This document shows positions 2,787 through 44,878 of a stretch of DNA of 64,000 bases, piece by piece. Under the pieces are notes generated by a model. The model did not search any database and was not told the DNA's origin. It saw nothing but the letters and a program-made list of their open reading frames with translations. The DNA is from a virus: IMG/VR virus record IMGVR_UViG_3300027749_000060, positions 1 through 64,000 of that record. One strand, written 5' to 3'. Position 1 is the stretch's first letter. Every line of letters starts with the position of its first letter. A program made the position numbers and the translations under genes.

Positions 2787-5700
2787 TTAATACTCGCCAC
2801 CGTCAATTGTATCTGTATTAGTTAACACAGAATTTCCATTCTTTTTTATGTCTGTTGTTACTGATATATTACCTGCAGATAGTGTTCTAGTAGCAATTGC
2901 ATAGCTAAGGTATTGGTTATCTGTTATTAACCCAGATGCTCCTGCTATCAATACTCTATTCTCAATTAAATGTGCATCTTTAAACCCATCGGCAGTAACT
3001 GCGGCAGTGAATGTACCGGTGCCCTCTACCCTGAGCGGTCTTCCAATTGACCATGCATCGTGCCCGTAATCATAAAGTATTGTTGCAGTACCATCTATGC
3101 CTAAATTAAGAGTTAAGCCGCCATTGGCCGATTCGGCCGCTGTAGTTGAATTTTTACCTAATTCAATGTTTAAATCACCAACAGCAACAGTAGTAGAATT
3201 TACAATAGTTGTATTGCCGCGTACTGTTAAATTTCCACCTACTAATAAATCGTTTGTTGTTTCTAGTGTTGTAAATTTACCAGTAGACGGAGTGGTATTA
3301 CCAATTGGAGTATTATCTAATGCAAAAAGTGATACGTTACCGGCAACATTTAAATTGCCGCCAATTCCAACACCACCAGATACTACAAATGCACCTGTAT
3401 TTTTACTAGTTGATTCTGTTAGATTTGTAATAGTTACTTGGATATCGGTTGTGCCAGTTAACACACCCCTGCTGCCAACATATCCATGAAACCCTTGGCT
3501 ACCAGTATATCCAACTCCAGAAGCACCAATTGGGCCAATTGATCCTCTTGATCCTACATATCCTGTTGCGCCAGTAATTGATAATCCTTGACTACCTGTA
3601 TAACCAACCACGGTACTAGCAGACCCGGTGTATCCAATTCCTTGCGGGCCAGTTGAGCCGGTTGGGCCGGTTATACCCTTAGCGCCAGACAAATCTGTTA
3701 CATAAATGTAAGAACTACCATTCCATAAGTAAAGTATTGCATCTTCCGAGTTTTCAACATTGTTATCAACAATAGCAAATTGCCCTGCTGTAATCCCAGT
3801 AGGAGCAGTATCGGCAGTTAGTGCTGCTACAGAAGCATAAGATTTAGCAATAGTAAATCCTAAACCAGTATCGCCTTTACTACCAGTGTATCCGTATCCT
3901 GTTGCGCCAATTTGTCCGGTGGCTCCCATTATACCAATCATACCAGTAGCGCCTGTGATTGATACACCAGTAGCTCCTCTTGGGCCTGTAGGTCCTCTTT
4001 CGCCGGTAGCGCCAGTGGCTCCGCCTGGGTCGCCAGTTGGACCTGTTGGGCCTGTTGCACCAAATCCTGTTGCGCCTACCGATCCCGTATATCCAGAAAT
4101 GCCGAAGCCGGTTGCACCAATCGGTCCTGTTATGCCTTGTATGCCAAAGCCGGTTGCACCAATTTGGCCGGCTGGGCCAGTATCGCCTTGTACACCTTGA
4201 AATCCAGTTGCACCAATCTGTCCCGTTGCACCAATTGTTCCCTGCGTCCCTTGAATTCCAGTTGCACCACGGACTCCTGTTGCGCCATTAATTCCTTGTA
4301 ATCCAGTGGCACCTTGTAATCCAGTTGCACCAGTATCGCCTTGTACGCCTTGTACGCCTGTTGCACCAAATGCCCCAGTTGGACCAATTGTTCCCTGCGC
4401 ACCTTGTACTCCGGTAGCACCACGAGAACCAGTTGCCCCTGTTATTCCAATTCCAGTTGCACCAACTTGCCCAATAGCACCAGTATCGCCTTGTACGCCT
4501 TGTAGTCCAGTTGCACCAATTGTTCCTACACCAGTGGCACCTCTTGGACCCAATACACCCGTAGCGCCAACTGCACCGGCGTTGCCCGGCAACCCCTGTA
4601 GTCCAGTCGCGCCAAATTGCCCAATTGAGCCGGTATCGCCTTGTACGCCTTGTAACCCTGTTGCACCAAATTGTCCCGTTGCACCAATAGTACCAATTGG
4701 TCCTTGTACTCCTGTTGCTCCTGTTAATCCTGTTGCACCTTGAGTGCCACCTGCTCCGGTTAATCCCTGTGCGCCGTTAGTTCCTGCATCACCTTTGGCT
4801 CCTGTTAGTCCAGTTGCACCTTGAATTCCAGTTGCGCCTGCTATGCCTTGAATTCCAGTTGCACCAACTGCTCCATTGGCACCTCTTGCACCTGCTGCAC
4901 CTGCTGTACCAGTTGCTCCGATTGGGCCAGTATCGCCTTGTACGCCTTGCAATCCTGTTGCACCACGAGAACCAGTAGCTCCTGCAACACCAGTGGCTCC
5001 AAAACCAGTTGCTCCAGGGGAACCGGTGAGACCAGCAGCACCTGCTGTACCAGTTGCTCCTATTAATCCTTGCAGCCCAATTGGACCTGCAGGTCCCTGG
5101 GGCCCTGTTGCGCCCTGTATTCCATTGGTACCAGCTGGACCGCCTAATCCAGTGGCACCAATAGTTCCTGCACCAGTTGCACCAGTAACCCCTTGTGCGC
5201 CATTAGCACCCTTAGACCCAGTATATCCTGCTGCGCCCGGGGCTCCGGGTAAACCAAATCCAGTTGCACCCTTTGATCCAACATATCCCCTGGCACCAGC
5301 TAATCCGGCTGGCCCAGTTGCTCCTGTGTCCCCATTAGGTCCAGTGTCACCTTTTACGCCTTGAAATCCAGTTGCACCAATTTCTCCATATGGTATGCCA
5401 TTGGCATGATACAATTGGTCTGTATAAATTGATCCTGCGTATACATTACCAGCAATACCTGCGCCGCCTGCAACTACTAGCGCACCAGTAGTAGTGTTAG
5501 TACTTGCAGTTGTATTTGTTAAATTTACCGAACCAGCATCAATAATTCCAGGTGTTCCGGATATTACTCCTCCCAGACTAACAGAACCATTGGATATAAA
5601 TTTTAAGTGACCAGTTGCATTATCCCAAGCAATAAATGCAGAATTTTGTGAGCCAATAGCAGATTTAAAGTAATTAAATTTAAATCCAATATCGGCACCG

Positions 5701-6098
5701 TCATCAACTGTTAATGTAGTTCCACTGGTGTGTAATGTTATTAAAGAATCACTTACAGACGTATTTACAGAGCTGACTGTAGTAGGAGTACCCGTTAAAA
5801 CTAAATTTCCAGTTATAGTAACATCTACTGCTGTAAAAACTGGTTGTACACCAATTTGTGTAATACCAGGTTGAGATGCTGTTTTTATTAAACCTGTAAC
5901 TTGATTGGCTGAAATGTTATTGGCATATACATTACCTGTTACGCCAACTCCGCCCGATACAGTTAACGCACCAGTTGATGTGCTGATACTTTGCGTTGCA
6001 TTTGATACGCTAAATTGCGTACCAATTACAGTCGAAGTTACATTGCTTGCTGTTCCTAAATTTCTTAGTACAGCCGGTTGGCGTAAATATCTGATCAT
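2787..6098 (-). CDS. Collagen-like tail-fibre protein, 1103 aa
   Basis: Roughly residues 236-880 are Gly-X-Y triplets, dominated by GATG, GPTG and [10 protein letters not shown] units, a collagen-like triple-helix stalk. It is interrupted near residues 743-806 by a globular insert ([17 protein letters not shown] ... [17 protein letters not shown]) that is frequent in fibres of marine T4-like phages. The N-terminal ~235 residues carry repeated short modules with [20 protein letters not shown]. The C-terminal ~200 residues repeat this type ([19 protein letters not shown]). Such proteins form trimeric fibres that bind the host surface. It starts eight bases after the stop of the 118-residue gene with no clear ribosome site. 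The proline-rich reading frames on the opposite strand are shadows of the GXY repeats. Confidence 0.9.
3460..5390 (-). repeat. Collagen-like GXY triplet repeat region
   Basis: Some 600 residues of near-continuous Gly-X-Y coding sequence, with longer recurring blocks (GATG-X-QG-X-QGDTG, about 12-18 residues) repeated many times. The globular insert at about 3680-3870 is the only long break. Such DNA is prone to copy-number change by recombination. Confidence 0.85.
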
Positions 6099-6105: not shown

Positions 6106-6462
6106 TTAGCTCATAATTTCATAGGACAATACATACTGTAATACTCCTGCTATGTCAGCCGATATTCGTAATGCATCACCTTCTTCAAGATATATACTGG
6201 TATCTTTAGCAATAGCAACTAAAGAATCACCAACCGGGACTGGTATTGCACTACCAATTTTATAGCTAACAGAATTTCTATATATATCAATAGTAACTGT
6301 AGTGTCAGATGCACTCAAATTTGTAACATATAATACATTTATACGGTAAGATTCCGAACTATTCACTGAATTTTCTAAAACTATATCAAGTGTATCTGCC
6401 ACCCAATCGGCTTTAGTTTTTCCAAGAATGGAATTTGTAGTAATTAAATTAGGAGCAGCCAT
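6106..6462 (-). CDS. Small virion protein, repeated beta-domain (copy B)
   Basis: A 118-residue protein starting MAAPNLITTNSILG. It shares the IPVPVGDSL ... LEEGDALRIS pattern with the 110-residue protein at 1027-1359 and with the N-terminal domain of the propeller protein at 28354-29676. A late-promoter match (CATAAATA, 6506-6513) lies 44 bases upstream of its ATG, and GGAT is a plausible ribosome site. It ends eight bases before the collagen-like fibre gene, so the two form a late transcription unit that stops at the 2731-2757 terminator. An attachment or adaptor role next to a fibre gene is inferred from context. Confidence 0.7.
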   Translation of the reverse strand: MAAPNLITTNSILGKTKADWVADTLDIVLENSVNSSESYRINVLYVTNLSASDTTVTIDIYRNSVSYKIGSAIPVPVGDSLVAIAKDTSIYLEEGDALRISADIAGVLQYVLSYEIMS

Positions 6463-6535: not shown

Positions 6536-9500
6536 CTAAGGATTGAAATTCATGCTAACTGTTAAACTCTTGGGCAATGTAATAGTTGATTCAAAATAAT
6601 CAGCGTTTTCGTAAAGAGCACTGATTTTTATAGTATGCCCGCCCTCGCAAAATCCTGTCACAGATCCAGTTGTGGGGTCTATTGCCATGGTGTCAGACGA
6701 ATTAGCAGGAGATACTACAAGTAATTTATAAACAACAGTTTGTCCTGGATTATTTATATTCAGTAAAAACATGTTGCGTACTAAACAATCATACGAAACA
6801 CTTCCTGCCTTTAACTCTTTTGTAAAAGAATCAGTAGCAATAGGTAAAGAAAAAGGATTTCCATATACACTGTTATATAAATCTCCACTAACCGACTCCC
6901 ATACTATAGTCCATTTTCCAGTGGGTTGCGAAGAGTCATTGACTAATAATGTAGCCGACGTAGCAACAATTGGCCCGGCTTCTCCCTGAGTGCGAATGTT
7001 TATTTTTATTGTTTCTGTTCCTTCTTTTAGTTTATCGTTATACAATGTCATGTTAAATGATGCTTGTCCATTTTGTACAATAACACTACCTGAATTAATT
7101 TGATTAGAAAAATCTCCAGAATTAGTTGTTCCGTCGTTGGACCAATACAACATGGTATTGTTGGGTACATTTATTGTTTTAATAACATATGTCACACTGT
7201 CCCCTTCATTGATTGATGAAATCAATGTACCTCCGTTACGCTCAGATAAATTTATAACCAAACCGTGCCCTTGAGAAAACAATCCTACTGGATTTTCAAT
7301 AACTTGCCCAGATGCAAGTATGCTTATAATGTCTCCCGAATAATAAGAAATTGGTACTATACGTCCTAACATATTAACATCAATGTAGTATCCCCCGTTA
7401 TATTCTTGATGATAACCGCCTCGTATGCTTGGTGTTGTTTTTGTTTTATTTTCGTTATTAAATATACTAGTTGAGCTATTTCCCTCACCTAAGAATATAC
7501 TTAAACTTCCCACTCCTATATCGTATTTAAATTTTTGCTGTGCTATTCCAGTTCCAGTATTAGACTTTGGTTGTGGCTTATAATAGGATGGTTCCCATCT
7601 TCCTGGTATTACTATACTAACAGCCAGCATGTTTAAATACAATTTTTTATTTTTATCCCAATCTGCCCAACGCCACGAGGCAAACATTTCAGTTGGAGGA
7701 TTGGCTCCTACTACTTGATTTATTTTTAATATATGCCCGGGAGATTGATATTTACGTTCGTAATCTTGAGTGTCAAATCTTGGTTCTACTACCCAGGCGG
7801 GTAAATCAAATGCTGTGTGCGAAGTGACCCAAGTTACAACTGTCCAAACAGCCACACTATTAGCTATTAGAAATTGATCTGTTTCATATCCTTGTTTAAA
7901 TTTAAATGTAGCAGAATGAACAATTGGTGAACTATCAAATTTGTCGTATTTTGTAACTTGATAGTCATCTCCTGGATACGAATCAGCAATGGCATATGCA
8001 TTAATATCATTCTGATTAAACAAATTAGTAGTACTTGTACTTCTTACTAAACCATTTCTATTAGCCCACCACCAATTTAATAGATTACTTCCTCTGTCAG
8101 ACTCAACTGGAAAGACTGAATAAATTGGTGGTGCCATGATAACATTATCAGCAATTGTTACAGATTTTGATACTGCAACAATGAGACCATTAACACTGTT
8201 GTCAATTCTTACTTTTAAAATTATACTCCTAATAGGTCTGTAATTCTTAGATATAGTTTTAGTGAAAGTAGAAGTATTATTTACTATTACTACTATACCA
8301 GCATTTTCAGAATCGTCAAAGTCATCTCCCGCTGCTGTTCCAACATTACTCCAATACAAGGCAGTACCATCTATTACATTAGTTGTATCAACTCTATAAG
8401 TTACAGAACTTCCTTCGACCACTAAAGTGACACTTGGGGTTATGGAACATTTTATTACTGTTTTAGATGTGTCATTTACTATTACTGTATTTGCATTTGC
8501 AACCACCGGGCCATTTAATGATTTAGTTCTCAATTCCATTTTTAATTTTTCTGGGCCCTCGGTTAATTTGTCAATGGTTGCAATTCTAGTAAAAGTTGCC
8601 AAATTATTTACTATAGTAATAGTATCTTGATTTGCTGTTGCAACAGTCCATTTAAATGCCACTGAACCAGACCCGCCAGCACCAAATTCATTTGTATTAC
8701 CAATACTGCTATAAGACACCGGTGTATTAATATCATAGTCAACGGTTCCGTTATTATTAAGATTGTTTACACTAAAATTGTTAACGCTTGAATCTGCCAG
8801 ATATAACAAACTAGTTTGAGATATTAATAGTAAAGACGTAGAGGTTGGTAATGTAATTGATTGTGTATTACCACCACCGTATGGATTTGCTCCTTGTGTA
8901 GCAGTCAGCGGCCCGGTTGGTCTTGTAAAATTGCCAGTGTATACAGCTACCCCTTTAACTATGCGAAGATTAGAAATATACGAATTATGTATATAGTATC
9001 CCCAATACGCTGCGTATCCAATATACATGTCGGGTTTTTGTCCACTGAATGCAGCAGCAGAAAATATATCAGTGTCTACATTAGTATACTCGCCGCAGAC
9101 AACACCGTTACAATACCATGATAGTGTAGTACCATTTCTGACCACGGCCCAATGTTCCCACGCACTACTAGTTGGGGAAACAGTTGTGGGATAATCGGTT
9201 GTTAGCCCCAATCGGATTGTTAATTTATCCGAGTTATTTAAAGGATCTCTATATATTACCCATCCGTTTGTAGTATTATCAACTTTTTGTCCAATTCCTG
9301 GTCCACTGTAGTTTGTAAACGGTTCTAATAGATACCACCACCATTCAATAGTAAAATTACCAGTGTCAAATTCAAATGCCTGGCTATAAGGTATACTCAA
9401 ATAGTAACTATGATTATTAAAACTTAAACTGCCACCTGGTATTGATACCGCTATTCCGCCTGCTTGACCACCATTATCGCTGTAGTCTTGTGAAAAATTT

Positions 9501-10846
9501 AATGCAGCAGACGGTATTAAATTTTTCCCATCACTGCCACTGAATCCACCTTGATCGTCGTCGCCCGGGCCGCCACCAGCTCCGCCAAACAGTCCCCCGC
9601 CGCCACCGCCGCCACCAGCTCCAATGTATTGACTAGTATATCCGCTGCCGCCACTATTACTATCTGACATGTACCAAACATCTTGTTCTTTTCCTGGTCC
9701 TAATCCTGCATTGCCTCCACCACCACCTCCGCCACCACCTGCGGCAATTATTTTAATATTATTATTAATCAGTAATACTGATGCGCCACCACCGCCACCT
9801 CCAGTTCCGGCAACTGTTTGTGGGCCGCTACCACCACCCACTCCTCCGGCTAATCCAGAAATTGGAACAAATAAATTATATGCCATAACATATAAATTAC
9901 TATCGTCAGTTGCAATCCCTTTATATTGCCCGGGGCGAAACAATCCACGAGCAGGCGGAACAGTATCTGAAAATCTAATAATTCCATTTACTACAATTAT
10001 CCATTGCACGGCATTATACGGGTCTTGACTTGCTTCTGAATGTTTAGCAAACCAGCCGTTGCCGTCGGGTAACAATTCAGGATTGGCAGTTACAGTTGCT
10101 AGTAAATTTGAAAAATAACTTGCACCGGTACCCAAACCGCCTGTGCCGCCTACTCTGTTAATTCCAGTGCTTCCTTCTTTGCCGCCGCCGCCTATATAAA
10201 CTTTTAATTTGTCCCCGGGATTTACAGGTAATGTACCAGACACAATCTGGCCCGGATATCCGGGGTATCCTAGATATAGGCCATCGCCACCTTTGCCTCC
10301 GCCTGCACCTGTAATTGTCACTTGTAATTGATAAACCTTGGCAGGTACTGTCCAATCATAACTACCCGATCCTGTTCTATATAAAGAATCTGCTACACCA
10401 AAATCTGTAAGTTGAGTAGTTCCTTTATTTGTCAGATATAAAATTGTTCCGTCTTTGACTCTGGCAGTAGTAACAGTATAATTAATTGTATCCCCTTCAT
10501 TAATTGATGTTCTATCTGGCACAATACTATATGTAGGAGGATCAAGTATTTCAATTATTTTAACAACCGGCGGTGATGTTCCTGTTAATGTCACAGTTAA
10601 GGGTTCAGCTGGCTCTGGCAGAAAATCGGATCTAACATTTATTACTAATTGTAAGTAGCCAGGCTCGACTGGGCCAACAATAAAATTACCGCTTAAACTA
10701 GTGGGCAATTGTCCATTTATAGCATCTATGTCTGTCAGTGTGATGCCAGCGCCAGAGATTACATATGGTATAATTGACCCATCGGGTTTATTAGTTTTTA
10801 ATGTAACTATTACATTTTTTCCATTTTCAAAAACTTGGTAAGCCAA
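6536..10846 (-). CDS. Giant virion adhesin: Calx-beta-like, Gly-rich and LamG-like domains
   Basis: About 1436 residues. The best start is TTG at 10846: GGAG lies six bases upstream, while the TTG at 10858 has no ribosome site. Segments around residues 110-160, 740-900 and 1215-1310 carry the EGDTINYTVTT / EGSSVTYRVDTTN / EGDSVTYVIKTIN pattern with ..LYWSN.GT...DF, resembling Calx-beta domains that bind calcium in large adhesins. Residues ~330-435 are extremely Gly-rich (runs of seven to nine Gly). Residues ~480-660 look like a concanavalin/LamG lectin fold (FDTGNFTIEWWWYL, WEHWAVVRNGTTLSWYCNG, YISNLRIVKGVAVY). There is no enzyme motif. It follows the SGNH adhesin gene by 15 bases. The likely role is a distal host-binding fibre; assignment is by domain style. 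Confidence 0.8.
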   Translation of the reverse strand: MAYQVFENGKNVIVTLKTNKPDGSIIPYVISGAGITLTDIDAINGQLPTSLSGNFIVGPVEPGYLQLVINVRSDFLPEPAEPLTVTLTGTSPPVVKIIEILDPPTYSIVPDRTSINEGDTINYTVTTARVKDGTILYLTNKGTTQLTDFGVADSLYRTGSGSYDWTVPAKVYQLQVTITGAGGGKGGDGLYLGYPGYPGQIVSGTLPVNPGDKLKVYIGGGGKEGSTGINRVGGTGGLGTGASYFSNLLATVTANPELLPDGNGWFAKHSEASQDPYNAVQWIIVVNGIIRFSDTVPPARGLFRPGQYKGIATDDSNLYVMAYNLFVPISGLAGGVGGGSGPQTVAGTGGGGGGASVLLINNNIKIIAAGGGGGGGGGNAGLGPGKEQDVWYMSDSNSGGSGYTSQYIGAGGGGGGGGLFGGAGGGPGDDDQGGFSGSDGKNLIPSAALNFSQDYSDNGGQAGGIAVSIPGGSLSFNNHSYYLSIPYSQAFEFDTGNFTIEWWWYLLEPFTNYSGPGIGQKVDNTTNGWVIYRDPLNNSDKLTIRLGLTTDYPTTVSPTSSAWEHWAVVRNGTTLSWYCNGVVCGEYTNVDTDIFSAAAFSGQKPDMYIGYAAYWGYYIHNSYISNLRIVKGVAVYTGNFTRPTGPLTATQGANPYGGGNTQSITLPTSTSLLLISQTSLLYLADSSVNNFSVNNLNNNGTVDYDINTPVSYSSIGNTNEFGAGGSGSVAFKWTVATANQDTITIVNNLATFTRIATIDKLTEGPEKLKMELRTKSLNGPVVANANTVIVNDTSKTVIKCSITPSVTLVVEGSSVTYRVDTTNVIDGTALYWSNVGTAAGDDFDDSENAGIVVIVNNTSTFTKTISKNYRPIRSIILKVRIDNSVNGLIVAVSKSVTIADNVIMAPPIYSVFPVESDRGSNLLNWWWANRNGLVRSTSTTNLFNQNDINAYAIADSYPGDDYQVTKYDKFDSSPIVHSATFKFKQGYETDQFLIANSVAVWTVVTWVTSHTAFDLPAWVVEPRFDTQDYERKYQSPGHILKINQVVGANPPTEMFASWRWADWDKNKKLYLNMLAVSIVIPGRWEPSYYKPQPKSNTGTGIAQQKFKYDIGVGSLSIFLGEGNSSTSIFNNENKTKTTPSIRGGYHQEYNGGYYIDVNMLGRIVPISYYSGDIISILASGQVIENPVGLFSQGHGLVINLSERNGGTLISSINEGDSVTYVIKTINVPNNTMLYWSNDGTTNSGDFSNQINSGSVIVQNGQASFNMTLYNDKLKEGTETIKINIRTQGEAGPIVATSATLLVNDSSQPTGKWTIVWESVSGDLYNSVYGNPFSLPIATDSFTKELKAGSVSYDCLVRNMFLLNINNPGQTVVYKLLVVSPANSSDTMAIDPTTGSVTGFCEGGHTIKISALYENADYFESTITLPKSLTVSMNFNP

Positions 10847-10861
10847 TTTTAACTCCAATTC

Positions 10862-13800
10862 TTATATTATAGGACCATTAATTATATTAACTTCAAGTTC
10901 GTATATGTAACTTATTGATCCAATTACATTTATATAAACACTTTTAGGTGGTCCCATTTGTCCAGTTTGGGTTAATAATGTATATGTAAAAGTATCCAAT
11001 CCTTCGTAGTCAGGAAATGGTACATATGCAAAGTTTCGTCTATCAACTGTTATTCTAACATATCCGTGCTGCGGTTGAGATAATACTATAGGTTCTGAAT
11101 ACTTACCAGGTCCTACTCGTTGCATAATATGTGTATTATACAATTTTAAATTATTAGTATCTGTTGCAGTTTTAACCACTGGGGTTGCAAGAGGTCCAGT
11201 GCTTTTAACAGGAATAGGAGAATTGCCAGCTGGTTGCGTCATCCAAGATACAGGAGCAGTGGGTGCTCCTTGTGCCCATCTACTATGAGCAAAAGTCTGT
11301 TTAAAAGTATCGTAACTTTGTATATTTTGTATAGGTATAACCAATGCGTTATCTGAAATATCTGCTACTGTATCTGAGATAATTGTAACTATTCCAGATA
11401 ATGGTTTACTAAAGACAATTGTGTTGTTACTTTTAAAATTATAAGTATCAAATTTTGTTTCATGATTATCTGTACTATATTTTGAATTTATTAACCTTGT
11501 ACCATTTATAGGTGGTACATTTTTTATCATGTCATAAAATGGTGCATTAATAGGTAAAACTGCTCCATTTGAATCTATTCTATTAGGACTTGGAGGATAT
11601 ATGTCAACTACAAAAGGTGTTCCGTTTTGAGCAATGTCAAAGTTTATTTCGCAATATGTATCGTACATATCGCATAGTTTTTCTTTGCCGTATTCGTCTA
11701 TATTTTTAAGATTAACGGCATTTCTAGTATTCCATATAGTCGATCCTGAGGTAGTTCTAATAGATGCTGCAACACCTTTTGCTACTATGTCCTGTGGGTT
11801 TTTAACTCCACTAGAATTCCATATTACATCATTATGATAATCTGTTATACTTGCTGCTAGTGCTGCCGAACTGCCAGTGGTATCTGCTATAATTTTAATT
11901 ATGTAGTCTCCCTGAAAGAGAAATTTTTCTACTGTAAATATATTAGTAAAATTAATTGTTTTCGAAGTTTGATTGGTTTCTACTACCAATTCAAAAGTAG
12001 CATTAAATTCGTTAGGGGCCAGATATAAACTTCCTATATCATCCACCGATAAATTAAATTTATATTTGCCAGAGTTGTATATAGTAACATACCATCTATA
12101 CTCGCCGGAGCCGTCCCATACTCCAAAACTATTAATTAATGTAGACCATTGCCCATTTATTGTTGTAGGTGCTGGGTAATATTCTGGTGCTTTGATTAAA
12201 CTATTTGCAGATTCTGCATAAATTTTTATGTCATACCATCCTGGATCTTCTATTGTATATGTAGTAGTTTCGACATTTTTATAATTTTCTACAGGTGAGC
12301 CGGTTGTGGCCATAATTTTTTTAAGATCAGGATCCGACCTAATTCCAATGTTTGATTTTAATTGTAAATTAGCAGAGGTGTCAGCTGACAGAGAAAATAC
12401 ATAGTCATCTGCCTTAGGAAAAAATACTTCCCATTCATAATATTTTTTTGACCAATTTAAATTAGTAACAGACTGATCAATTGAAAATGTGACATCGTTC
12501 ATCCCTTGCAATGAATCACCCACACCAAATACCAAAATAGAAGTACTAGTAAAAGATTCGGGCACTGTAAATAGTCCCGATTGTGTGTCGTGGTTGCGAC
12601 TAATATATGTAACATCTTGCAACAGGTCACTAATACTAGGTTCCGTTCCGTCAACAATGTCTACTCTAGGATGATAAAATTGCAATCGTGTTGCGCTGTC
12701 ATTGCAATAATACAAATAAGTTCTATGTATTCCTTGTGTGGAATTGAGTCCCCATTTTATATCACCGGTGCCGATGGTGCCGCCGTTGTTATCACCAACT
12801 TTTCCTGCTGTGGTATAATACCCAGAATCTGGATGTTTACCAGTTGATGTAGTTGTTGCAGGATATACATGCCCTACAAAAAGGTACCATTGATTTTGTG
12901 TTAATTGAGACGTTAATCTATAGTCCCAATAAGGATTAAGTTCTGCATCTCCAGTATCCATACGGCATGCACCGCCATTATTACCATACATACCTAAATA
13001 AAAATAACCCCCAGCGGCAGTAGAAGTGCGCTTAACCCATACAGAAAACCTATACATTTTAGTATTATCGATGTCAAACCACGGTGTATTCCACCCTCCG
13101 TCAGCCTGATTGTCAGACGTTGGTCTTGCCTCCCATACTACGTCAGTTTTAGACCATGGATTACTGCCAAGAACACGTTCATTTTCATTTACGTTTCCAT
13201 TATGAGTATAACCGGTTATTGAACCAGAGCCAACGTACCATTCGTTGTATTTTATAATTGATGTAGTATCTCTACCTGCATAATTATTATGGTATAATAC
13301 CCCTGCCATTGGGATGGAAGGAATTTCTGCTACATTCCATATCCAATAACCAATAGTATAATTAAATTCCACAGTAAATTCACTTGACCAATTTACAATA
13401 TCGCCATATTCAACTTTTCGTATATTGCTAAGTGATGTTTGTATTCCAAAATTTAAAAGATCAGTAGCCGATACATCGTACCCAACTAATATCATATCTT
13501 CAGTGGATGCTGCTCCAACATTTATTGTAAGATTTTTAAGTAACGGAACTACCCCTATGTCATAATAAATTGATTGTACAGCTCCTAACGCATTGGGTAA
13601 ATTCATATATGAAAAAATATCCCCTTGAGCTCTAGCTTCGTCCCATATCCTGATATCAAAAATATAAGCATACAGTTGATTAGCTGGAGTTGCATCACCT
13701 TCTTTATTACCCAATGTAACAGGGCTAGTACTAGGTTGGGCAGTCCTATTTAAATAGAGAGTTAAATTATTTTGTATTCTAGGTGTTCCGTTTACATATA

Positions 13801-15760
13801 AAAGAATTTGTGTTCCGTTAACTACTACTGCTACGTGTGTTAACACAGTTAAAGGAATTATTACTGTAGTAAATATTCGACCGTTACCGCCAGCAAGAGA
13901 TATGTCTGTTCCCTGGTTCCAATCTGTTGCAATTGACATTGTTCCATCTTGTTCAATAAAAATTTCATATTCGGTGTTTTTGGATATCACTATGCCGCCA
14001 CGATTAGCAGTGGTACGATATATCCAAAACTCAATAGTATAATTACTTGGTGCATAAAATGACAAATTATATTTAGGCATACTGTCAATTGATATGTACC
14101 CTATTTTATTATTATCTCCAAATAGCATTGCAGGAAGAACCAACGTTGGATCTGGCACTGTTGAAAGTGTCACAGATCCTATTTTAGTTATTGTTGATGT
14201 AGGGGCTATAGTATCTAATATTTCTGAAACCAGTGAATTAACAATAATTCTTGCCAATAATTTTGACATAGTAGGTTGCAAAACTAGTGTACCTTTTGCA
14301 ACACCTACATTTGTTTTTGATCCAGCTAAGATTGTTGTTTTAGTTACAGCCGTGCTTGTTACCAATCCAGATATATTATCATCCCATATACCATATGCAT
14401 TTAACAACGAAGACCATTGATATTTTGGATTAGTAAATGGATACGTAACCAAAAACTCATTGGGTTTCAATCCTAGTATTGGTTTAGCAGTTGTTGGGTA
14501 TCCGTCAATACATCCGTTATATGCTTCAATCCCGTTACCTTTTCCGCAGCCAGGAATTCCCACTAAGGTATATGCTGATCTAAATTTAAATAGTGCAGAC
14601 CCAAAAATTGTTTCACTTGCCCCACACCTATACATTGCCTCAGTTAACTCAACAGTAAGTCTATTCTTTTTTGGTTCGTCGGATGTTGTTACTACTACTA
14701 TATAATCGCTAGATGTAGAATTTAATGCTTTGGCAAGATTCTTTGCTTCCGCTGGATTACCGTATACATCAAAATTTTTATTAAAAATTACTTTGCCGTC
14801 TGTGCGTCTGATTCGACATAAATTATAACTACGTTGCGTATAAAAAAACGCTACATCTTTTTTTGAATCCCAGAGACCGGCATCTAATTTTCCGTAAATA
14901 TCCAATGCCCCGCGTGATACAGCTCTAAAAGAAAGATTGTCTCTGTAATATACCTCTACCCATCTATGAGATCGAGGAACAAACGATAACTCAATTAATT
15001 TTTGATTATCTAATAGAAATTTCTCTTGGTAGTCTTTTCTATACCATTTATAGGGTACATACTGTGATCCGTATTTTCTTATAATTGCAGAATTTATTTT
15101 GCTGGTTAAACACAGATCCACTAATTTATAATAACCCAATTGTCTAGGATGTATACCGTCAGGAAGTTCATTTAACCAATTTGGCATTCTATTAGCATCT
15201 GCAACTACATCTTTATACTTTGCTGCAACTTCGCGCATAACTTCTGCATAAGGATTAGTATCCCAAAATTTAGTTATAGTTGGTGTTTGCCAGATCATTA
15301 TTTGATCTGGTTTTAATCCGTTTCGTAATGAAATTAAATTATGTCTGTATTCGGTCAATGATACATTTTGTTTAGCATCATTTAGACCGTGATTTATGAT
15401 TACAATATTTGCTTGTATAACGTCCGGCCATACTTCATTTACTCCATCTTTTCCGTACAACAATTCTCCACTGGTACTATTTCCTTGGGATCTGGTAGTG
15501 ACTATAAGTTTATGCTGTGGCATTAATAAAGTTAACAGTCTAGCCGGCGGTTCTGGCACTCTAGCAGTAATTTGATCATTTTTACTACAAACTCCTAATA
15601 AAGGAACAAGTTCGTCAGGGTCTCGGCCGCACATAATGCTATCACCAAATAACTCTATATGTATGTAATCGTTGGCCACAGACGATACCGACTTAGTATT
15701 CATTGCTATGTCTTTTGTATTGGGAACAATTACAATCTGATTTGATATTAGAGCAGCCAT
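10862..15760 (-). CDS. Giant virion adhesin with N-terminal SGNH/GDSL hydrolase domain
   Basis: 1632 residues with a GGAGG ribosome site. Residues ~35-215 carry all SGNH blocks: Ser41 in FGDSIMCG, Gly93, Asn127 in NHGLND, and Asp201/His204 in DGIHP. These enzymes remove acetyl or acyl groups from sugars, so on a virion it would act on host surface polysaccharide. Residues ~305-405 (CRIRRTDGKVIFNKNFDVYG ... YTLVGIPGCGKG) match the GG/ILEI lectin domain known in phage long tail fibres. Residues ~560-710 look LamG-like (YTIEFWIYRT, HVAVVVNGTQILLYVNG), ~845-1040 resemble a jelly-roll (YRFSVWVKRTS), ~1190-1310 are PA14-like, and the C-terminus (FPDYEGLDTFTYTLL) resembles a cadherin/Ig repeat. It ends one base from its upstream neighbour's start region and is co-transcribed. 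The enzyme call is strong; the specificity is unknown. Confidence 0.88.
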   Translation of the reverse strand: MAALISNQIVIVPNTKDIAMNTKSVSSVANDYIHIELFGDSIMCGRDPDELVPLLGVCSKNDQITARVPEPPARLLTLLMPQHKLIVTTRSQGNSTSGELLYGKDGVNEVWPDVIQANIVIINHGLNDAKQNVSLTEYRHNLISLRNGLKPDQIMIWQTPTITKFWDTNPYAEVMREVAAKYKDVVADANRMPNWLNELPDGIHPRQLGYYKLVDLCLTSKINSAIIRKYGSQYVPYKWYRKDYQEKFLLDNQKLIELSFVPRSHRWVEVYYRDNLSFRAVSRGALDIYGKLDAGLWDSKKDVAFFYTQRSYNLCRIRRTDGKVIFNKNFDVYGNPAEAKNLAKALNSTSSDYIVVVTTSDEPKKNRLTVELTEAMYRCGASETIFGSALFKFRSAYTLVGIPGCGKGNGIEAYNGCIDGYPTTAKPILGLKPNEFLVTYPFTNPKYQWSSLLNAYGIWDDNISGLVTSTAVTKTTILAGSKTNVGVAKGTLVLQPTMSKLLARIIVNSLVSEILDTIAPTSTITKIGSVTLSTVPDPTLVLPAMLFGDNNKIGYISIDSMPKYNLSFYAPSNYTIEFWIYRTTANRGGIVISKNTEYEIFIEQDGTMSIATDWNQGTDISLAGGNGRIFTTVIIPLTVLTHVAVVVNGTQILLYVNGTPRIQNNLTLYLNRTAQPSTSPVTLGNKEGDATPANQLYAYIFDIRIWDEARAQGDIFSYMNLPNALGAVQSIYYDIGVVPLLKNLTINVGAASTEDMILVGYDVSATDLLNFGIQTSLSNIRKVEYGDIVNWSSEFTVEFNYTIGYWIWNVAEIPSIPMAGVLYHNNYAGRDTTSIIKYNEWYVGSGSITGYTHNGNVNENERVLGSNPWSKTDVVWEARPTSDNQADGGWNTPWFDIDNTKMYRFSVWVKRTSTAAGGYFYLGMYGNNGGACRMDTGDAELNPYWDYRLTSQLTQNQWYLFVGHVYPATTTSTGKHPDSGYYTTAGKVGDNNGGTIGTGDIKWGLNSTQGIHRTYLYYCNDSATRLQFYHPRVDIVDGTEPSISDLLQDVTYISRNHDTQSGLFTVPESFTSTSILVFGVGDSLQGMNDVTFSIDQSVTNLNWSKKYYEWEVFFPKADDYVFSLSADTSANLQLKSNIGIRSDPDLKKIMATTGSPVENYKNVETTTYTIEDPGWYDIKIYAESANSLIKAPEYYPAPTTINGQWSTLINSFGVWDGSGEYRWYVTIYNSGKYKFNLSVDDIGSLYLAPNEFNATFELVVETNQTSKTINFTNIFTVEKFLFQGDYIIKIIADTTGSSAALAASITDYHNDVIWNSSGVKNPQDIVAKGVAASIRTTSGSTIWNTRNAVNLKNIDEYGKEKLCDMYDTYCEINFDIAQNGTPFVVDIYPPSPNRIDSNGAVLPINAPFYDMIKNVPPINGTRLINSKYSTDNHETKFDTYNFKSNNTIVFSKPLSGIVTIISDTVADISDNALVIPIQNIQSYDTFKQTFAHSRWAQGAPTAPVSWMTQPAGNSPIPVKSTGPLATPVVKTATDTNNLKLYNTHIMQRVGPGKYSEPIVLSQPQHGYVRITVDRRNFAYVPFPDYEGLDTFTYTLLTQTGQMGPPKSVYINVIGSISYIYELEVNIINGPII

Positions 15761-15761: not shown

Positions 15762-18700
15762 TTATCCTCCGCTTATATACCATGATGTTGGGAATAATCT
15801 ACCTTTTTTAGGTATGCAGAAATGTCGTGTGTCAAAATATACACGGTAATTCCAATAATCTGTTCCAACTTTTACTACATCAGCAGCATAGTATTTACCC
15901 GCTTCTATAGAAGCATCGTAGCGTGTTCTGTAGGCCGCAGATACATATTTGTATTCTCTGCTAAATGGTTTCCCAATTGGGCCAGTGGCCGGATCAATGT
16001 ATTTTGTAGTGTCTCCTACATTTCCAATAGCATATATTTTTATATATGTATAAAACGAAGATACTTGATCTAGCTCTTTAGTAGTATACATTATTTGCGC
16101 TTGGAATTCACTAATTAAAGGTATCATGGTGCGACGCTCAACATCAAGTTGCGGAGGCAATTCTTTAATTATAAATGTTTCTGCTTCAAGTTGTGGTGGC
16201 AGCTCTTTAAGAGTGCTAGGTTCAATATCAAGTTGTGGTGGCAGCTCTTTAAGAGTGCTAGGTTCAATATCAAGTTGTGGTGGCAGCTCTTTAAGAGTGC
16301 TAGGTTCAATATCAAGTTGTGGTGGCAGCTCTTGTAATAAACCAGTATCAACATCAAGTTGTGGCGGCAGCTCTTGTAATAAACCGGTATCAACATCAAG
16401 TTGTGGCGGCAGCTCTTGTAATAAACCGGTATCAACCTCCATAACTGGTAACAGAATCTGACTTGGTAAATGGTCAAGATCAAATTTTGGCACCAATGGT
16501 GTGCTAAGTCTGAAAGGATCCTCGGATTCTAATATTGGATCCATTGGTCCAACTAGCTCAGATGGCATACCAGCTGCCGGTGTTAAATTATCTTGTAATA
16601 CTGTTTCTATATCCATTATAGGATATAATGTTTGACTAAACATAGCTTCATTAATTTCAGCAGCTGGTTCAATTCTACCTATATGATTTCCTTCATTGCT
16701 TTCAAGACTTGGTGCAAGATTTGTTTTTAATTCAATTGGTTGTGTAATAATAGGTATAGCATTTGCACTAAATTCTGATATAAATTGTTCAGTTACTGGT
16801 GATACCCTACCTAAAATATCAGCATCGTGCATAATTATTGGTGTTAAAAAGATAGATAAATCAACATCTGTTATTTTTTCTGGCGGCGTGTTTGAACTAA
16901 ACTCTGATGTTATATATTCAGTAGTTGCATCAATTTTATGGTATAACCCATTGGTTCTTGTTTCTTGTCTGAATGGTACATGAATTTCAGGGTATTGAAT
17001 AGAAGTATCGTTATGAGGAGTTGTCTTAGATTCAATTTGTTGCCCATCGCGTAACAAATTAAAATCATTAATTTCTTTGATAAGTTGCGTAGAATTTACT
17101 TCTTGACCAGCACTAAATGTATCATTGACATAGTAAGTTGATAACGAATAAGTTTTAGCATTACCTAAGGTATTCTCAATATAAGTAGTCATTGAATCAT
17201 TTTTAGCATTGCCTTGAGTTTGTTTATAATAAGTTGATAACGAATAAGTTTTAGCATTACCTAAGGTATTCTCAATATAAGTAGTCATTGAATCATTTTT
17301 AGCATTGCCCAATGGTGCTTCAACATAAGTTGTTAACGAATAAGTTTTAGCATTACCTAAGGTATTCTCAATATAAGTAGTCATTGAATCATTTTTAGCA
17401 TCACCCAATGGTGCTTCAACATAAGTTGTTACAGTATCGGTTTTGGCATCACCCACTGTATGTTTAAAATAGGCCGAATTAACATCTGTTGCAGCAATAA
17501 ATCCTTTATTTTCATAATATGTTGTTATAGCATCCGTCTTAGAGGCTAGTCCTTTATTCTCAAAATAACTTATTGTAGAATCAGCTTTACTTTGATAACC
17601 TCCATTTACAATGTAGGTTGTTATAGCATCTGTCTTAGAGACTAGTCCTTTATTCTCAAGATAGCTAATGCTATGAGGTAATACTGGTGTATACGAACCT
17701 ATACTAAAATAACTTATAATATGAGGTTTTGCAAAGGCTATCTGAGTTGATTTTATATAACTAAAATGTTCCATGGCATGTGGTACAGCCACAGTTGACA
17801 TTATATAAGAATATGTATTATTCAAATCAATTGGAATTTTTTTTGATTTGACTAAATTTATACCGGGTAATTTTATAGATAGTGGGGCAAGAAATCTGTT
17901 ATTACTATGAGAAATTTTAACTGTTTTAATTTTTGGTGCGTTGGTATATTTTAATTTTTCTAAGAATATTTCAGGTGCTTTAGCTTTAATGTCGGGCGAG
18001 TTTTTTATATCAACATTGGCTCTGATTTTAATTTTAATTTCATCAGTATTAAATACACTATTTGGAGCAATGTTATGTTTAGATGAATTTTCTTTAGTAA
18101 TTATCACTCCATTGGTAATAATTTTATTTTGCAATCCCCAATTTCCAATTGGTATATACACTTTACTTGATAATGTAGTATCAGTTTTAACTTGGTATAA
18201 GGTAACGTTTGAATCTAAATAGTTTACTATTGTTCTTCTAATAGAAATAATGTCAGAAGTTGATACATTGGTTGCATATTTTCCTTTATCAACATTATTG
18301 ATTATTAAATTAGCATAGGCTGTGTCTATATATAAACTAGCGCCCGAAACTGTAGTATTTGCTGTTAAGGTCAAGTTTGATGTAAAAAATACTTCACCTG
18401 CATAACTTAATGAACCGTTCAATGGATTACTTGTATATGTTATTCCCCTGGCATACGGTTCGACTAATGTTCCAAAATTAATGTAATTAAAAATTACGCC
18501 AGGACCAGTTCTGACACTAATTCTAAGTATTCTACTTGAAGTAGAAATTAATGTATCACGAACGTCGTATATACTAGCAGGAGTTAATATATTTTCAATT
18601 GTAATAATATCTCCTGCACGTAAATCAAAATAATTGCCAGATTGTAATATACCACGTATAATAGTAGTACCCCTGGTTAGAAAGTATGATTGACCAATAC

Positions 18701-21700
18701 CAGCACCCGGGCTTCTATAATAGTCTGGTATATAATAAGTATCTGACAGAGGAATAGTAACTGTAGCAGTTATAGAAGTATTAGGATTTTGATTATCATA
18801 TAAGAATAATATTTCCTTTAATTGATATCCATAGTATGGCGCTGTAGTACGACCATTTGGAAAAAATACAGAATCTGAAATCATCGGTGCTGCAAATTTA
18901 TAATTTCCAATGCTAATCAACGGCGTAACTAACTTTTGAGATGTATTAAATGGCACCGTCAATGAAATCATATCATTTTCTTTTATTGCTACTCCGTCTG
19001 TGTACTCAGACCCGTTTATAGCTAATATTCCAAACTCGGCACTCACATAAATATTCTGACTAGTTAATATAGATTGACTCATTAAAATTTCAATTTTAGT
19101 TTCGTTTTTTCTTGGTACTGTAACTGGTCTAAATATTTGAAATTTATTATAAGGCTGAAATCCTTGATCGACATAAGAAAAACTACCAGTGCCTAGTAGG
19201 GACCAATCGCCAGTTCCGGCTTCACTAGCAAATACAATACTACCATTGGCATTTGTTGTTTTAGTATAAATTGATTTTATCGACGAAGATGAAATTCCAA
19301 CATTTGCTGTACTCAGATGATTAGAGTTGTCATAAAAATATTCAATGTATTGCAATGCTCTACCAACATAAATTCCAACCTCGTAAGTAAGTTCTTTAAC
19401 TGGTAATATAGTCTTAACCAGTAAGTTTGTGCCAAAGGTTATACTTGCCGGATTATCTAATGTAAAATATTTTTGTTTTACTATTATTGTAGCGCCATTT
19501 GGTATAAATGTTGAGTTTGCAACTTCAAATCCAATTCTATGAAATTTAATTGGGATGCCAGTGAACCCAAGATTATTAACTGATGCATAATATATTAAAA
19601 AATACCCATTTGGCGCTGTCAAACTTGCCATTTGAATTTTTGTAAATTGTATAGTATATGTGTTACCAATTGTTATATTATTATAATCTTCGGTAGTAAT
19701 TATATAATCACCGTTGAATCTTTTTCCTGACACTCTGCCAAAAGTAATATTAGTAATAACTGTATTAATATATACTTTATCATAATCTGCCGCACTTACG
19801 TAAAATTCATTTACAGATTGTGTAGATGATCCTGCGTATAAATGCGCTATACAAACAATTGAAATACTAATCCTGTCTATAGTCTGTATACCGTCCAGGT
19901 AAACTTCAGTTGGTCCAGTATAGGAGTAAGTACTACTATTAAATACTACATAAAAAGAAGTGTCAACATCAGTGTCAACTGTTCCATTGAATAACAATAA
20001 ATTATTAAAAGTGTCGATTAAAATCAGTGACGTGATAGGGGGGTTAGTTATCACAGTGCTTGGAGCCAATACTATAAATGTACCACCATACAATACAGAT
20101 CCACCACTGTCAGTTACTAGTATTGGATCACCCGATAATGTTAGATTAACAGAATTAGTAAAATAAGGTTTTGTTGTAGCATTATATTCAACTCTTATAA
20201 AATTAGAAATAACATTAACATCAATAGCAATAAAAGTAAGATCAGGAGAGTTAGTAAATGATGCAATTCTAGTAGAGACTGTAATTCCCGGTCCACTGAC
20301 ATAATCTCCTACGTTTACAGATTCTATCTGATTAACAAAAACTTTAGTCGAACTGGTTGTTGGTGCAGTAGTAACAACAACATTTCCTAATGGATAGGGT
20401 TGGGCTTCTGATCCTACCCAGCGAATTCTAATAAAATTAAAATCACCCAAAATTCCTTTTTTGTAATATACCCCGGGTACACTACTTAAAGTTGATGTGT
20501 GTATATTTAAGGGATTGGTATTGTCAATTGGTGCACCAAGATACAGATCACGTGCTGCCTCAACATATAATGCATCCGTAGTTAGGCTTCCAATTGCTAC
20601 ATTACCCATTGGAGTATTTTGTCCAAAAGTTATATATCCGTCGGTTGCTACATTTATACTTGTCTTGGCAAGGCCATACATAGTTAAGTTAAACGGCAAT
20701 GATATACTATCCACTCCCGTGTCACGGCTTCCAATATCAACATCAGCTTTAATATAGCTGTATTCCGTCAGGCTACTGTATCTGGTTAATGCTACTGTAC
20801 CAGGCACAAAGAAATCAGATTGTTTACTTGACGATACTACAGTAAAATTACAATCAATTGCAGTTTCACCAATAACAACAGTACGTCTATAAATTCCATT
20901 TGAATATGCTTTAAAACTAATACCTAAATAGTCGCCTGTGTTAAATTTAGTATTTGTTGCACCTTTTGCACCGTTGACCCAATACGACAAATCTCCACTA
21001 TTAGTATAGGCTGCAATTGATTCAACTCCTAACATTTTTACTCGGATTGGTCTGCTACCAATATGACTTAATGGTCCAGTTTTATCATCAAATTGAAATG
21101 GTATTATTTTTTTAACAGTAATACCACTGGGTGCTAGAAAATTTAAAGTAGAAAACTCTTGTAAGTAATGTACCGCAAGACAACTATTATCTACAACTGA
21201 TACCAATGTAATTTTATTATCAAATGCATATTCTTTTATTTGATTGTTTCGATCAATTGATAACGCAACATTATTATCATGCCCCGTGACCCATAAATTT
21301 TGATCAAACTGTCTTGCATATGCAGGAGCCATATTTGGGGTTGAAATATAATAGACGCCTGCGCCGTCGTAATTTGTAACTATGATTCGACGATTATTGG
21401 GGTCCGGAATCGCCACATAACTGCCATCGAGTATACTTGATGGCGTACCAACCGAGTTAACATTTTGTCCCAAATTTGTTAGCTGTGTGAGGTTACCAGA
21501 ATTGCTTACATAGTATATTACTCCTAGAGTAGTAACAACAATTGCGCCGTTGTCAATACATGCAATTGAGGCAAATTTATCCAAGGCGCTGCTAAATGTA
21601 TTAAGTAATTGAAACTGATCATTTAAATAGTATATACTACCTTGTCCGACTACCCATATATGTGCGTTTGCACCGCGTTGATTTATATCAAATGATGTTA

Positions 21701-22463
21701 CTATAGGATTTATTTTTGATCTATAGTATGCGCGTCTAGCATCTGTATATGACTGACCACTAGGAAGATCGGCTTCAAACGGCAGATTATTATTAAATGT
21801 TCCAACAGGAGTCACAACTGGATCAAACGTATTAGTGTTAATAGAATACGTTCTAAAAGTAATTCTGTACATTTTTTTATCTGCACATAAAACTACTGCT
21901 TCGGTAATTAATTTATTAGTAACAGGATCAATTTTTGAAAATTTTCTATAATCAATTGGCCCGGCTGGTAGATTTACTTTAGAAATTAATTCTTCATATT
22001 TTGTATAAAAGCAAACTGCATCATTTATATGATCTAATACAATATGGTATGATGAAATATTAGGAATAAAATTCCTATTGAATCCTAGTAGTTGTTGATT
22101 ATTTTTTGTACTTTTATAGAAGCTAATTAAAAATTTTTGTGGTACATAATTAAACCATTTTTTTCTAGCATCCGTGGTTTTTACTGACGGTCTATAATCA
22201 TTTTTATTAACAATTGCAAATTCTTGTTTTAAACTATCTAGTACATACGTATAGATTTGATAACCCAAATAAGACAGTGGTGTAGTCAATGTAGCTTCTA
22301 CATGGTCACCTGCTAGCAACTCTACTACGCCAGATGGAATTACACTACCATTTACTGATAGTGTAACCGACTGCTGGATACTTAATGTTTGTGATTTACT
22401 TGAGAAAAAATCTACAGTAACAACACTATTGGGGGTGCATGCCGAAACGCTGTTGAACATCAT
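15762..22463 (-). CDS. 2233-aa virion protein with propeller-like head and two repeat arrays
   Basis: The largest complete gene here. Two adjacent ATGs (22463, 22460) follow GGAGGG; the second has better spacing. Residues ~60-470 look like a beta-propeller (repeated ..IWVVGQGSIYYLN, GAIVVTTLGVIYYV, SYVAIPDPNNRRIIVTN). Residues ~590-690 (ISLPFNLTMYG, INVATDGYITFGQ) resemble a nidogen-like domain. Residues ~700-1500 are beta-rich. From ~1580 to 1800 a 16-residue unit (TTYIENTLGNAKTYSL) repeats, and ~2000-2110 consist of 14-residue ELPPQLD units. A short C-terminal domain (~2110-2233) with several Tyr and Trp follows. This reads as a long stalk or fibre with a globular end. I do not recognise a named family. 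It sits between the paralogous pair and the SGNH adhesin. Confidence 0.8.
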   Translation of the reverse strand: MMFNSVSACTPNSVVTVDFFSSKSQTLSIQQSVTLSVNGSVIPSGVVELLAGDHVEATLTTPLSYLGYQIYTYVLDSLKQEFAIVNKNDYRPSVKTTDARKKWFNYVPQKFLISFYKSTKNNQQLLGFNRNFIPNISSYHIVLDHINDAVCFYTKYEELISKVNLPAGPIDYRKFSKIDPVTNKLITEAVVLCADKKMYRITFRTYSINTNTFDPVVTPVGTFNNNLPFEADLPSGQSYTDARRAYYRSKINPIVTSFDINQRGANAHIWVVGQGSIYYLNDQFQLLNTFSSALDKFASIACIDNGAIVVTTLGVIYYVSNSGNLTQLTNLGQNVNSVGTPSSILDGSYVAIPDPNNRRIIVTNYDGAGVYYISTPNMAPAYARQFDQNLWVTGHDNNVALSIDRNNQIKEYAFDNKITLVSVVDNSCLAVHYLQEFSTLNFLAPSGITVKKIIPFQFDDKTGPLSHIGSRPIRVKMLGVESIAAYTNSGDLSYWVNGAKGATNTKFNTGDYLGISFKAYSNGIYRRTVVIGETAIDCNFTVVSSSKQSDFFVPGTVALTRYSSLTEYSYIKADVDIGSRDTGVDSISLPFNLTMYGLAKTSINVATDGYITFGQNTPMGNVAIGSLTTDALYVEAARDLYLGAPIDNTNPLNIHTSTLSSVPGVYYKKGILGDFNFIRIRWVGSEAQPYPLGNVVVTTAPTTSSTKVFVNQIESVNVGDYVSGPGITVSTRIASFTNSPDLTFIAIDVNVISNFIRVEYNATTKPYFTNSVNLTLSGDPILVTDSGGSVLYGGTFIVLAPSTVITNPPITSLILIDTFNNLLLFNGTVDTDVDTSFYVVFNSSTYSYTGPTEVYLDGIQTIDRISISIVCIAHLYAGSSTQSVNEFYVSAADYDKVYINTVITNITFGRVSGKRFNGDYIITTEDYNNITIGNTYTIQFTKIQMASLTAPNGYFLIYYASVNNLGFTGIPIKFHRIGFEVANSTFIPNGATIIVKQKYFTLDNPASITFGTNLLVKTILPVKELTYEVGIYVGRALQYIEYFYDNSNHLSTANVGISSSSIKSIYTKTTNANGSIVFASEAGTGDWSLLGTGSFSYVDQGFQPYNKFQIFRPVTVPRKNETKIEILMSQSILTSQNIYVSAEFGILAINGSEYTDGVAIKENDMISLTVPFNTSQKLVTPLISIGNYKFAAPMISDSVFFPNGRTTAPYYGYQLKEILFLYDNQNPNTSITATVTIPLSDTYYIPDYYRSPGAGIGQSYFLTRGTTIIRGILQSGNYFDLRAGDIITIENILTPASIYDVRDTLISTSSRILRISVRTGPGVIFNYINFGTLVEPYARGITYTSNPLNGSLSYAGEVFFTSNLTLTANTTVSGASLYIDTAYANLIINNVDKGKYATNVSTSDIISIRRTIVNYLDSNVTLYQVKTDTTLSSKVYIPIGNWGLQNKIITNGVIITKENSSKHNIAPNSVFNTDEIKIKIRANVDIKNSPDIKAKAPEIFLEKLKYTNAPKIKTVKISHSNNRFLAPLSIKLPGINLVKSKKIPIDLNNTYSYIMSTVAVPHAMEHFSYIKSTQIAFAKPHIISYFSIGSYTPVLPHSISYLENKGLVSKTDAITTYIVNGGYQSKADSTISYFENKGLASKTDAITTYYENKGFIAATDVNSAYFKHTVGDAKTDTVTTYVEAPLGDAKNDSMTTYIENTLGNAKTYSLTTYVEAPLGNAKNDSMTTYIENTLGNAKTYSLSTYYKQTQGNAKNDSMTTYIENTLGNAKTYSLSTYYVNDTFSAGQEVNSTQLIKEINDFNLLRDGQQIESKTTPHNDTSIQYPEIHVPFRQETRTNGLYHKIDATTEYITSEFSSNTPPEKITDVDLSIFLTPIIMHDADILGRVSPVTEQFISEFSANAIPIITQPIELKTNLAPSLESNEGNHIGRIEPAAEINEAMFSQTLYPIMDIETVLQDNLTPAAGMPSELVGPMDPILESEDPFRLSTPLVPKFDLDHLPSQILLPVMEVDTGLLQELPPQLDVDTGLLQELPPQLDVDTGLLQELPPQLDIEPSTLKELPPQLDIEPSTLKELPPQLDIEPSTLKELPPQLEAETFIIKELPPQLDVERRTMIPLISEFQAQIMYTTKELDQVSSFYTYIKIYAIGNVGDTTKYIDPATGPIGKPFSREYKYVSAAYRTRYDASIEAGKYYAADVVKVGTDYWNYRVYFDTRHFCIPKKGRLFPTSWYISGG
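16140..16445 (-). repeat. Tandem 42-bp repeats coding ELPPQLD units
   Basis: About seven in-frame copies of a 42-bp unit (14 residues, consensus ELPPQLDI/VE/DxxxLK/Q). Three copies near 16206-16335 and two or three near 16320-16440 are almost identical to each other in DNA, which indicates recent duplication. Confidence 0.9.
17100..17470 (-). repeat. Tandem 96-bp (2 x 48-bp) repeats
   Basis: Three nearly identical 96-bp units, each coding two 16-residue halves (MTTYIENTLGNAKTYS and LTTYVEAPLGNAKNDS types). Degenerate 16-residue copies continue to about 17720. They stay in frame within the 2233-residue gene. Confidence 0.9.
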
Positions 22464-24241: not shown

Positions 24242-24258
24242 TATTATTTAACTCCTGA

Positions 24259-27000: not shown

Positions 27001-27021
27001 TATTTTTTGCTCCTTGCCCAA

Positions 27022-31501: not shown

Positions 31502-31509
31502 TATTTATC
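31502..31509 (-). promoter_or_regulatory. Late promoter (TGATAAATA)
   Basis: Minus-strand GATAAATA preceded by T, overlapping the stop codon of the pirin-like gene and about 90 bases upstream of the 336-residue gene. Confidence 0.65.
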
Positions 31510-42618: not shown

Positions 42619-42633
42619 GGCCAGGTTTTTCCC

Positions 42634-42641
42634 GATAAATA
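42634..42641 (+). promoter_or_regulatory. Late promoter (GATAAATA) for gp26
   Basis: Plus-strand GATAAATA 33 bases upstream of the gp26 ATG. It interlocks with the opposite-strand late promoter at 42655-42662. Confidence 0.65.
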
Positions 42642-42654
42642 TATTACTAACTTA

Positions 42655-42662
42655 TATTTATA
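42655..42662 (-). promoter_or_regulatory. Late promoter (TATAAATA) for the tape measure gene
   Basis: Perfect T4-type TATAAATA on the minus strand, 36 bases upstream of the ATG at 42618. The two late promoters face across each other within 29 bp. Confidence 0.7.
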
Positions 42663-42674
42663 GGATTTCAAATA

Positions 42675-44722: not shown

Positions 44723-44781
44723 TGATTTTTGTACCTTGACTATTACTTAGCTTAATTCTCTGTATCTGTGTATTTTTTATT

Positions 44782-44866: not shown

Positions 44867-44878
44867 AAATCTGTGTAA

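Follow-up and report, generated by a model that had tools for sequence, protein, structure and literature searches.

Esterases carried on phage tails remove acetyl groups from capsules or O-antigens and are now believed to be widespread. The closest described systems are the tailspikes G7C gp63.1, Moo19 gp82, and B2 gp48-gp49 (PDB 9d80, 9d81, and 9d84), in which an SGNH domain is part of a virion receptor-binding protein, as we propose for the protein described here. Deacetylation of O-antigen by G7C is quoted (PMC13123978; PMC11654681), and p-nitrophenyl acetate esterase activity was shown for the Moo19 and B2 tailspikes (PMC11654681). Also described are Klebsiella prophage tail fibres with SGNH domains, two of which are active esterases (PMC13123978), and SGNH tail fibres of Acinetobacter phages, two of which also encode a ConA-like lectin domain (PMC11058221). 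We analysed a 64,000-base stretch of viral DNA (hereafter the window; bases 1-64000 of a 109,418-base IMG/VR virus record) in which, as in the G7C-type esterase tailspikes, an SGNH domain sits in a protein encoded among tail genes.

A 1632-residue protein within a tail-gene cluster

The frame at 10862-15760 (minus strand, like the domains and neighbouring genes given below) is open from an ATG start and encodes 1632 residues, the length given in an earlier note on this DNA, and the protein has a full-length homologue in IMG/VR locus L017 that is 81% identical over its length. The gene belongs to a cluster of tail genes in a jumbo T4-like phage. For the major head protein, the nearest relatives come from jumbo T4-like phages such as PA5oct, Phosso, and Vibrio phage 2.275.O (65-68% among the matches listed), and the baseplate wedge protein matches those of Atu_ph07, PA5oct, and their relatives (34-38% among the matches listed). 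In PA5oct, many genes flanking the head protein gene encode virion proteins, for which the record notes mass spectrometry.

All genes of the cluster are on one strand, with two tail-sheath-family genes upstream of a 2233-aa gene (15762..22463), and genes for a collagen tail fibre and another tail-fibre protein downstream. A single base separates the stop codon of the 2233-aa gene from the ATG of the 1632-aa gene, and a GGAGGA ribosome-binding site (15765..15770) falls within the final pair of Gly codons of the upstream ORF. The 2233-aa protein has no match in the phage collection, Pfam, or PHROGs. Its gene contains in-frame tandem repeats at 16138-16417 and 17134-17428 (42 and 96 bases). The adjacent tail-sheath-family genes (22520-27021; 573 and 920 aa) both match phrog_12249, and each has a counterpart in locus L048. 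Downstream of the 1632-aa gene are a 1440-aa gene with Gly-rich and LamG domains (6536..10858), a 118-aa gene (6106..6462), a collagen-repeat tail fibre with a conserved 255-aa N-terminus (2787..6098), and a 442-aa tail-fibre protein (1362..2690; phrog_17885, E 1.9e-89). A Pirin/cupin-type gene (31508-32161), odd in a phage structural cluster, is present near the major head protein gene.

Among named phages in the collection, none covers at least 80% of the 1632-residue protein in one place; 83 phage records match parts of it only, and most of the matches listed are to the GG domain. No DNA similarity to the phage collection was found for window positions 38806-58352. The full-length protein as a single query gave no match in viral contigs, and alignment A3 gave none in GTDB genome contigs; the scans that found relatives of the protein used alignments as queries. 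A search of viral contigs with an SGNH-domain profile returned 31 loci, including five IMG/VR contigs that have the layout of the window protein (L017, L018, L019, and the near-identical pair L020/L021). This family shares a short conserved N-terminus (consensus M-LLVPNH-VIVP-T), an SGNH domain at residues ~30-230, a GG domain at ~263-437, and a conserved C-terminus, and its distant members are 53-61% identical over the first 450 residues. In all family loci, the conserved end of the upstream large gene directly adjoins the SGNH-GG gene. The fetched loci end soon after, and homologues of further neighbours are noted only where seen: the 1440-aa protein in L017 and L018, and the 118-aa protein (70-75% identical) and the N-terminus of the collagen fibre in L019 and L020/L021.

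Domains, active site, and constraint

The SGNH hydrolase domain occupies residues 31-230 (15071..15670) and matches Pfam Lipase_GDSL_2 (PF13472) at residues 37-210 (E 9.4e-11, above the curated cut-off). Blocks I (GDS), II (G), III (GxND), and V (DxxH) are all present, and residues 41, 93, 127, 201, and 204 are S, G, N, D, and H, exactly as had been read from the sequence earlier. The Ser41 codon is at 15638..15640, that of Asn127 (block III, GLND) at 15380..15382, and those of Asp201-His204 (block V, DGIH) at 15149..15160. The Ser, Gly, Asn, Asp, and His are kept in 6/6 family rows (the window and the five loci). The pattern of four blocks in this order and spacing arises in only 11 of 20,000 residue shuffles of the window protein; because of this rarity and the retention of every block in the five homologous loci, it is not a chance occurrence. 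A second, sub-threshold GDSL match is found elsewhere in the same record (91341-91652, minus strand) in a 146-residue frame.

Structure prediction, which had been suggested as a check, gave a confident SGNH fold over residues ~31-230. In the AF2 model of residues 1-445, the pLDDT of 10-residue blocks is 65-98 over residues 31-230 and 63-95 over residues 301-410, and falls below 50 for residues 1-28 (residue 16 aside) and 234-292. The best VIA fold match of the SGNH model is 1yzf (Z 20.7, rmsd 2.1, 172 residues), an alpha/beta/alpha flavodoxin-like fold. Further matches include the CE3 acetylesterases 5b5s and 2vpt (Z about 19) and two Shigella phage esterase tailspikes, those of Moo19 (9d81, Z 18.8) and B2 (9d84, Z 18.4). 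A phmmer search of residues 1-230 against PDB sequences gave no match; a profile did match. The SGNH domain has an intact, conserved active site, and it probably deacetylates glycan.

The GG/ILEI domain follows at residues 301-420 (14501..14860). The GG/ILEI-like domain proposed in the earlier note is borne out by both profile and fold: Pfam ILEI (PF15711) matches residues 310-404 (E 4.5e-11, above the curated cut-off), a seven-sequence GG profile matches FAM3B, FAM3A, and the POMGnT1 stem (E 0.0014-0.0053), and Foldseek with the GG model recovers TMEM2, FAM3B, and POMGnT1. In POMGnT1, Arg129 and Asp179 hold the sugar, and both are conserved in a streptococcal phage adhesin (PMC9437275). These POMGnT1-type sugar-contact residues are present in the window protein, where Arg310 and Asp361 align with Arg129 and Asp179 by motif and spacing (50 vs. 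51 residues, as read from the alignment). All three of Arg310, Asp331, and Asp361 are retained in the window protein, L017, L020/L021, and 6 of 11 groups of giant relatives (described below), and are lost together in L018, L019, and four giant groups; one giant locus (L026) keeps Asp331 alone. Because their retention is all-or-none, the pattern suggests a working GG site where the residues are kept. The sugar-contact pair is lost in L018 and L019, two of the five distinct family members, and the GG domain therefore need not be a lectin throughout. Our own GG profile also matches T4 gp35, although weakly (15.7 bits, E 1.8e-6 in a search of four proteins), and gp35, a hinge connector between the proximal and distal fibre, is without the Arg/Asp sugar-contact residues.

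Beyond the GG domain, the LamG-like domain claimed earlier is present as a LamG (concanavalin A-like) domain at residues 568-715 (13616..14059; Laminin_G_3, PF13385, E 4.8e-18, 66.2 bits vs. a cut-off of 27.6). A module without a family name, found by tblastn and blastp, spans residues 816-1051 (12608..13315). The alignments of L018, L019, and L020/L021 lack it, and LamG is missing in L019. The same module is common to virion proteins of Vibrio jumbo phages (the D485 group), phage C48C1, and the giant relatives L033, L034, and L056-L059. Residues 1207-1325 (11786..12142) form a beta-sandwich that is PA14-like at best. Here the earlier claim of a PA14-like domain finds weak support: PF07691 matches two of the five scanned family C-termini (best E 0.0023) and does not match the window protein. 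The model of residues 1050-1632 is poor (mean pLDDT 44), and its fold matches are weak and mixed. They include 3ac0, which we take to be a structure with an inserted PA14 domain, and Cea1A, presumably of PA14 type. As these sit among many unrelated beta-sandwiches, we make no PA14 claim from fold matches. The conserved C-terminal part, recognized in the alignment, covers residues 1511-1632 (10865..11230) and includes an Ig-like Big_9 region at 1556-1596, which is below the Pfam cut-off in the window protein and matched in 5/5 scanned family members.

The comparison of the window gene with L017, by a Nei-Gojobori type count that is rough for GG and the linker, where dS exceeds 1, gave dN/dS of 0.166 for the gene, 0.086 for SGNH, 0.058 for GG, and 0.084 for the last 122 residues, vs. 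0.384 for residues 421-565 and 0.348 for the fast-evolving LamG domain; the value for the first 30 residues (0.551) comes from 30 codons only. Constraint acts on the enzyme, GG, and the C-terminus, and the LamG region is variable; a variable middle part is as expected of receptor contact.

The earlier note had called the N-terminal place of the enzyme unusual, and the survey agrees: among 11 further SGNH tail proteins for which a start could be mapped, the domain or its match begins at residue 65-523, vs. ~31 here. The survey covered PDB 9lna, 9d80, and 9d84, the phage records L005, L006, and L008, and the viral-contig loci L041 (with its copy L042) and L043-L046; small single-domain proteins (L007, L036-L039, and L047), the giants, and L061, the start of which is not settled, were left out. 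L046 comes near the start of the window domain at ~31. In Pfam and PHROGs, no match was found for the residues before the SGNH domain, and no virion-binding domain like that of G7C-type tailspikes is recognizable in them. The enzyme may lie at the end attached to the virion, as the earlier note proposed. Because the two genes are translationally packed, and both the end of the upstream protein and the start of the SGNH-GG protein are conserved, the SGNH-GG part probably lies where two fibre proteins join, rather than at a free tip.

Giant relatives with mostly eroded active sites

The same SGNH and GG domains are present in giant single proteins encoded by IMG/VR loci L022-L035, L040, and L056-L059, of which three are complete from stop to stop (L056, 4800 residues; L057, 5067; and L059, 4817). 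Their SGNH domains are 36-47% identical to that of the window protein (blastp), the GG domain is common to both, and the module of residues 816-1051 is found in six of the loci, as listed above. L056 matches phrog_10938, "virion structural protein". The possibility that the giants arose by simple fusion of the upstream gene with the SGNH-GG gene was rejected, because neither a profile of the upstream C-terminus nor blastp of the upstream protein finds a match in them; in this respect L056 has in common only the order of its modules, SGNH, GG, LamG, Gly-rich.

In the giants, SGNH is internal in one long protein and its active site is mostly eroded, whereas in the window protein it is N-terminal and intact. 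An insert is often present, which places block I 139-270 residues before block III, vs. 85-91 otherwise; in L025, L027, L029, L033-L035, and L040, block I is present ~190 residues earlier, behind the insert. With copies from one contig and near-identical copies merged, 11 giant groups remain. Among the three that keep Ser, Asn, Asp, and His, the block II Gly is changed in two, such that only L033/L057 has the full set.

In a tree of 28 rows, calculated with block I left out and with L055, L057, and L060 dropped (same contigs as L035, L033, and L040), the window family falls on one side of a branch (100/99), and the giants are not resolved (21/46). The state of the Ser requires at least five changes on this tree, with the direction of change read from a Ser-bearing outgroup only. 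Repeated loss of the Ser is likely on these phylogenetic grounds, and the number of losses is soft because the tree has seven unresolved forks.

The giants bear on an alternative that we regard as improbable, namely that the fibre retains SGNH for sugar binding or as a structural element, with catalysis secondary or absent, and that the giants are the end state of this path. Retention of the domain in the giants speaks for it, given that the Ser is lost in 6 of 11 groups and at least one of Ser, Asn, Asp, and His in 8 of 11. However, all five distinct family members, including that of the window, keep every catalytic residue, although the more distant ones are only 53-61% identical over the first 450 residues. 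A further idea, which we regard as doubtful, is that the SGNH-GG pair may be a fibre-joint module that repeatedly switches between enzyme and lectin, as an active esterase in separate genes and a dead glycan binder in giants. If true, one lineage shows the conversion of an esterase to a lectin in a virion.

Proposed role and comparison with known systems

The reading that we favour, with some reservation, is that the 1632-residue protein is a virion adhesin of a jumbo T4-like phage, which binds and probably O-deacetylates a glycan of the host surface, at a joint in a multi-protein fibre. Gene context and homology point to its presence in the particle. The N-terminal SGNH domain would be a working Ser-His-Asp esterase, most likely removing O-acetyl groups from a host surface polysaccharide. 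That glycan would be held by the GG domain next to the enzyme and by the LamG and beta-sandwich domains, which are more variable. Together, binding and deacetylation would allow the phage to penetrate or pass a modified layer of glycan, much as the G7C tailspike acts on O-antigen.

SGNH enzymes are broad. The fold matches of the SGNH model span thioesterases, lysophospholipases, and carbohydrate esterases, with TesA and aryl esterases among them, and the protein might thus be a virion esterase of another class (a thioesterase, lipase, or peptidoglycan esterase) with the cell envelope, and not an O-acetylated surface glycan, as its target. We consider this unlikely, as the fused GG and LamG domains point to glycans and carbohydrate acetylesterases (e.g., 5b5s, 2vpt, 5hoe, and 7ddy) account for many of the top fold matches. 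Small single-domain SGNH genes do exist in phages, such as the "putative deacetylase" of PBR31, whose annotation names O-antigen modification as a possible role, but the size, domain make-up, and tail-cluster position of the window protein, and the lack of any such large multidomain case among the relatives found, make it very improbable that it is a non-particle protein, a late product that is released or stays inside the cell and serves, for instance, to alter the host surface or to liberate progeny.

Under the favoured reading of a deacetylating virion adhesin, the enzyme of this family opens a long protein with several lectin domains, and the active sites of the relatives range from intact to dead. 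Because of this natural series, the question of whether deacetylation is needed, or holding the sugar is enough, is directly testable with homologues and an S41A variant.

The nearest named sequence is UniProt A0A6J5T0B2 from an uncultured Caudovirales phage, 86% identical over 444 alignment columns of residues 1-445, which is called an SGNH hydrolase-type esterase domain protein, apparently an automatic name. The GG domain is shared with the POMGnT1 stem, FAM3, the Dickeya/Erwinia jumbo phage ILEI proteins, and CBM_1 of a streptococcal phage Tal (PMC9437275), and may be shared with T4 gp35. Unlike the window protein, neither of two GG phage proteins examined by Pfam scan (L011 and L012) has an SGNH domain. 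A search of the open-access literature found no description of the SGNH-GG-LamG layout or of giant relatives with eroded active sites. In the G7C/Moo19/B2-type tailspikes, SGNH follows a virion-binding N-terminal part (matches begin at residue 206 or 523), and the available parts of their descriptions mention neither GG nor LamG, whereas the window protein has both. In the Klebsiella and Acinetobacter fibres, SGNH is far from the N-terminus or C-terminal (Acinetobacter domains start at 233-476 among the rows listed). Virion SGNH esterases are already known, from G7C, Moo19, and Klebsiella prophages, and it is the arrangement of domains in the protein described here that appears to be new.
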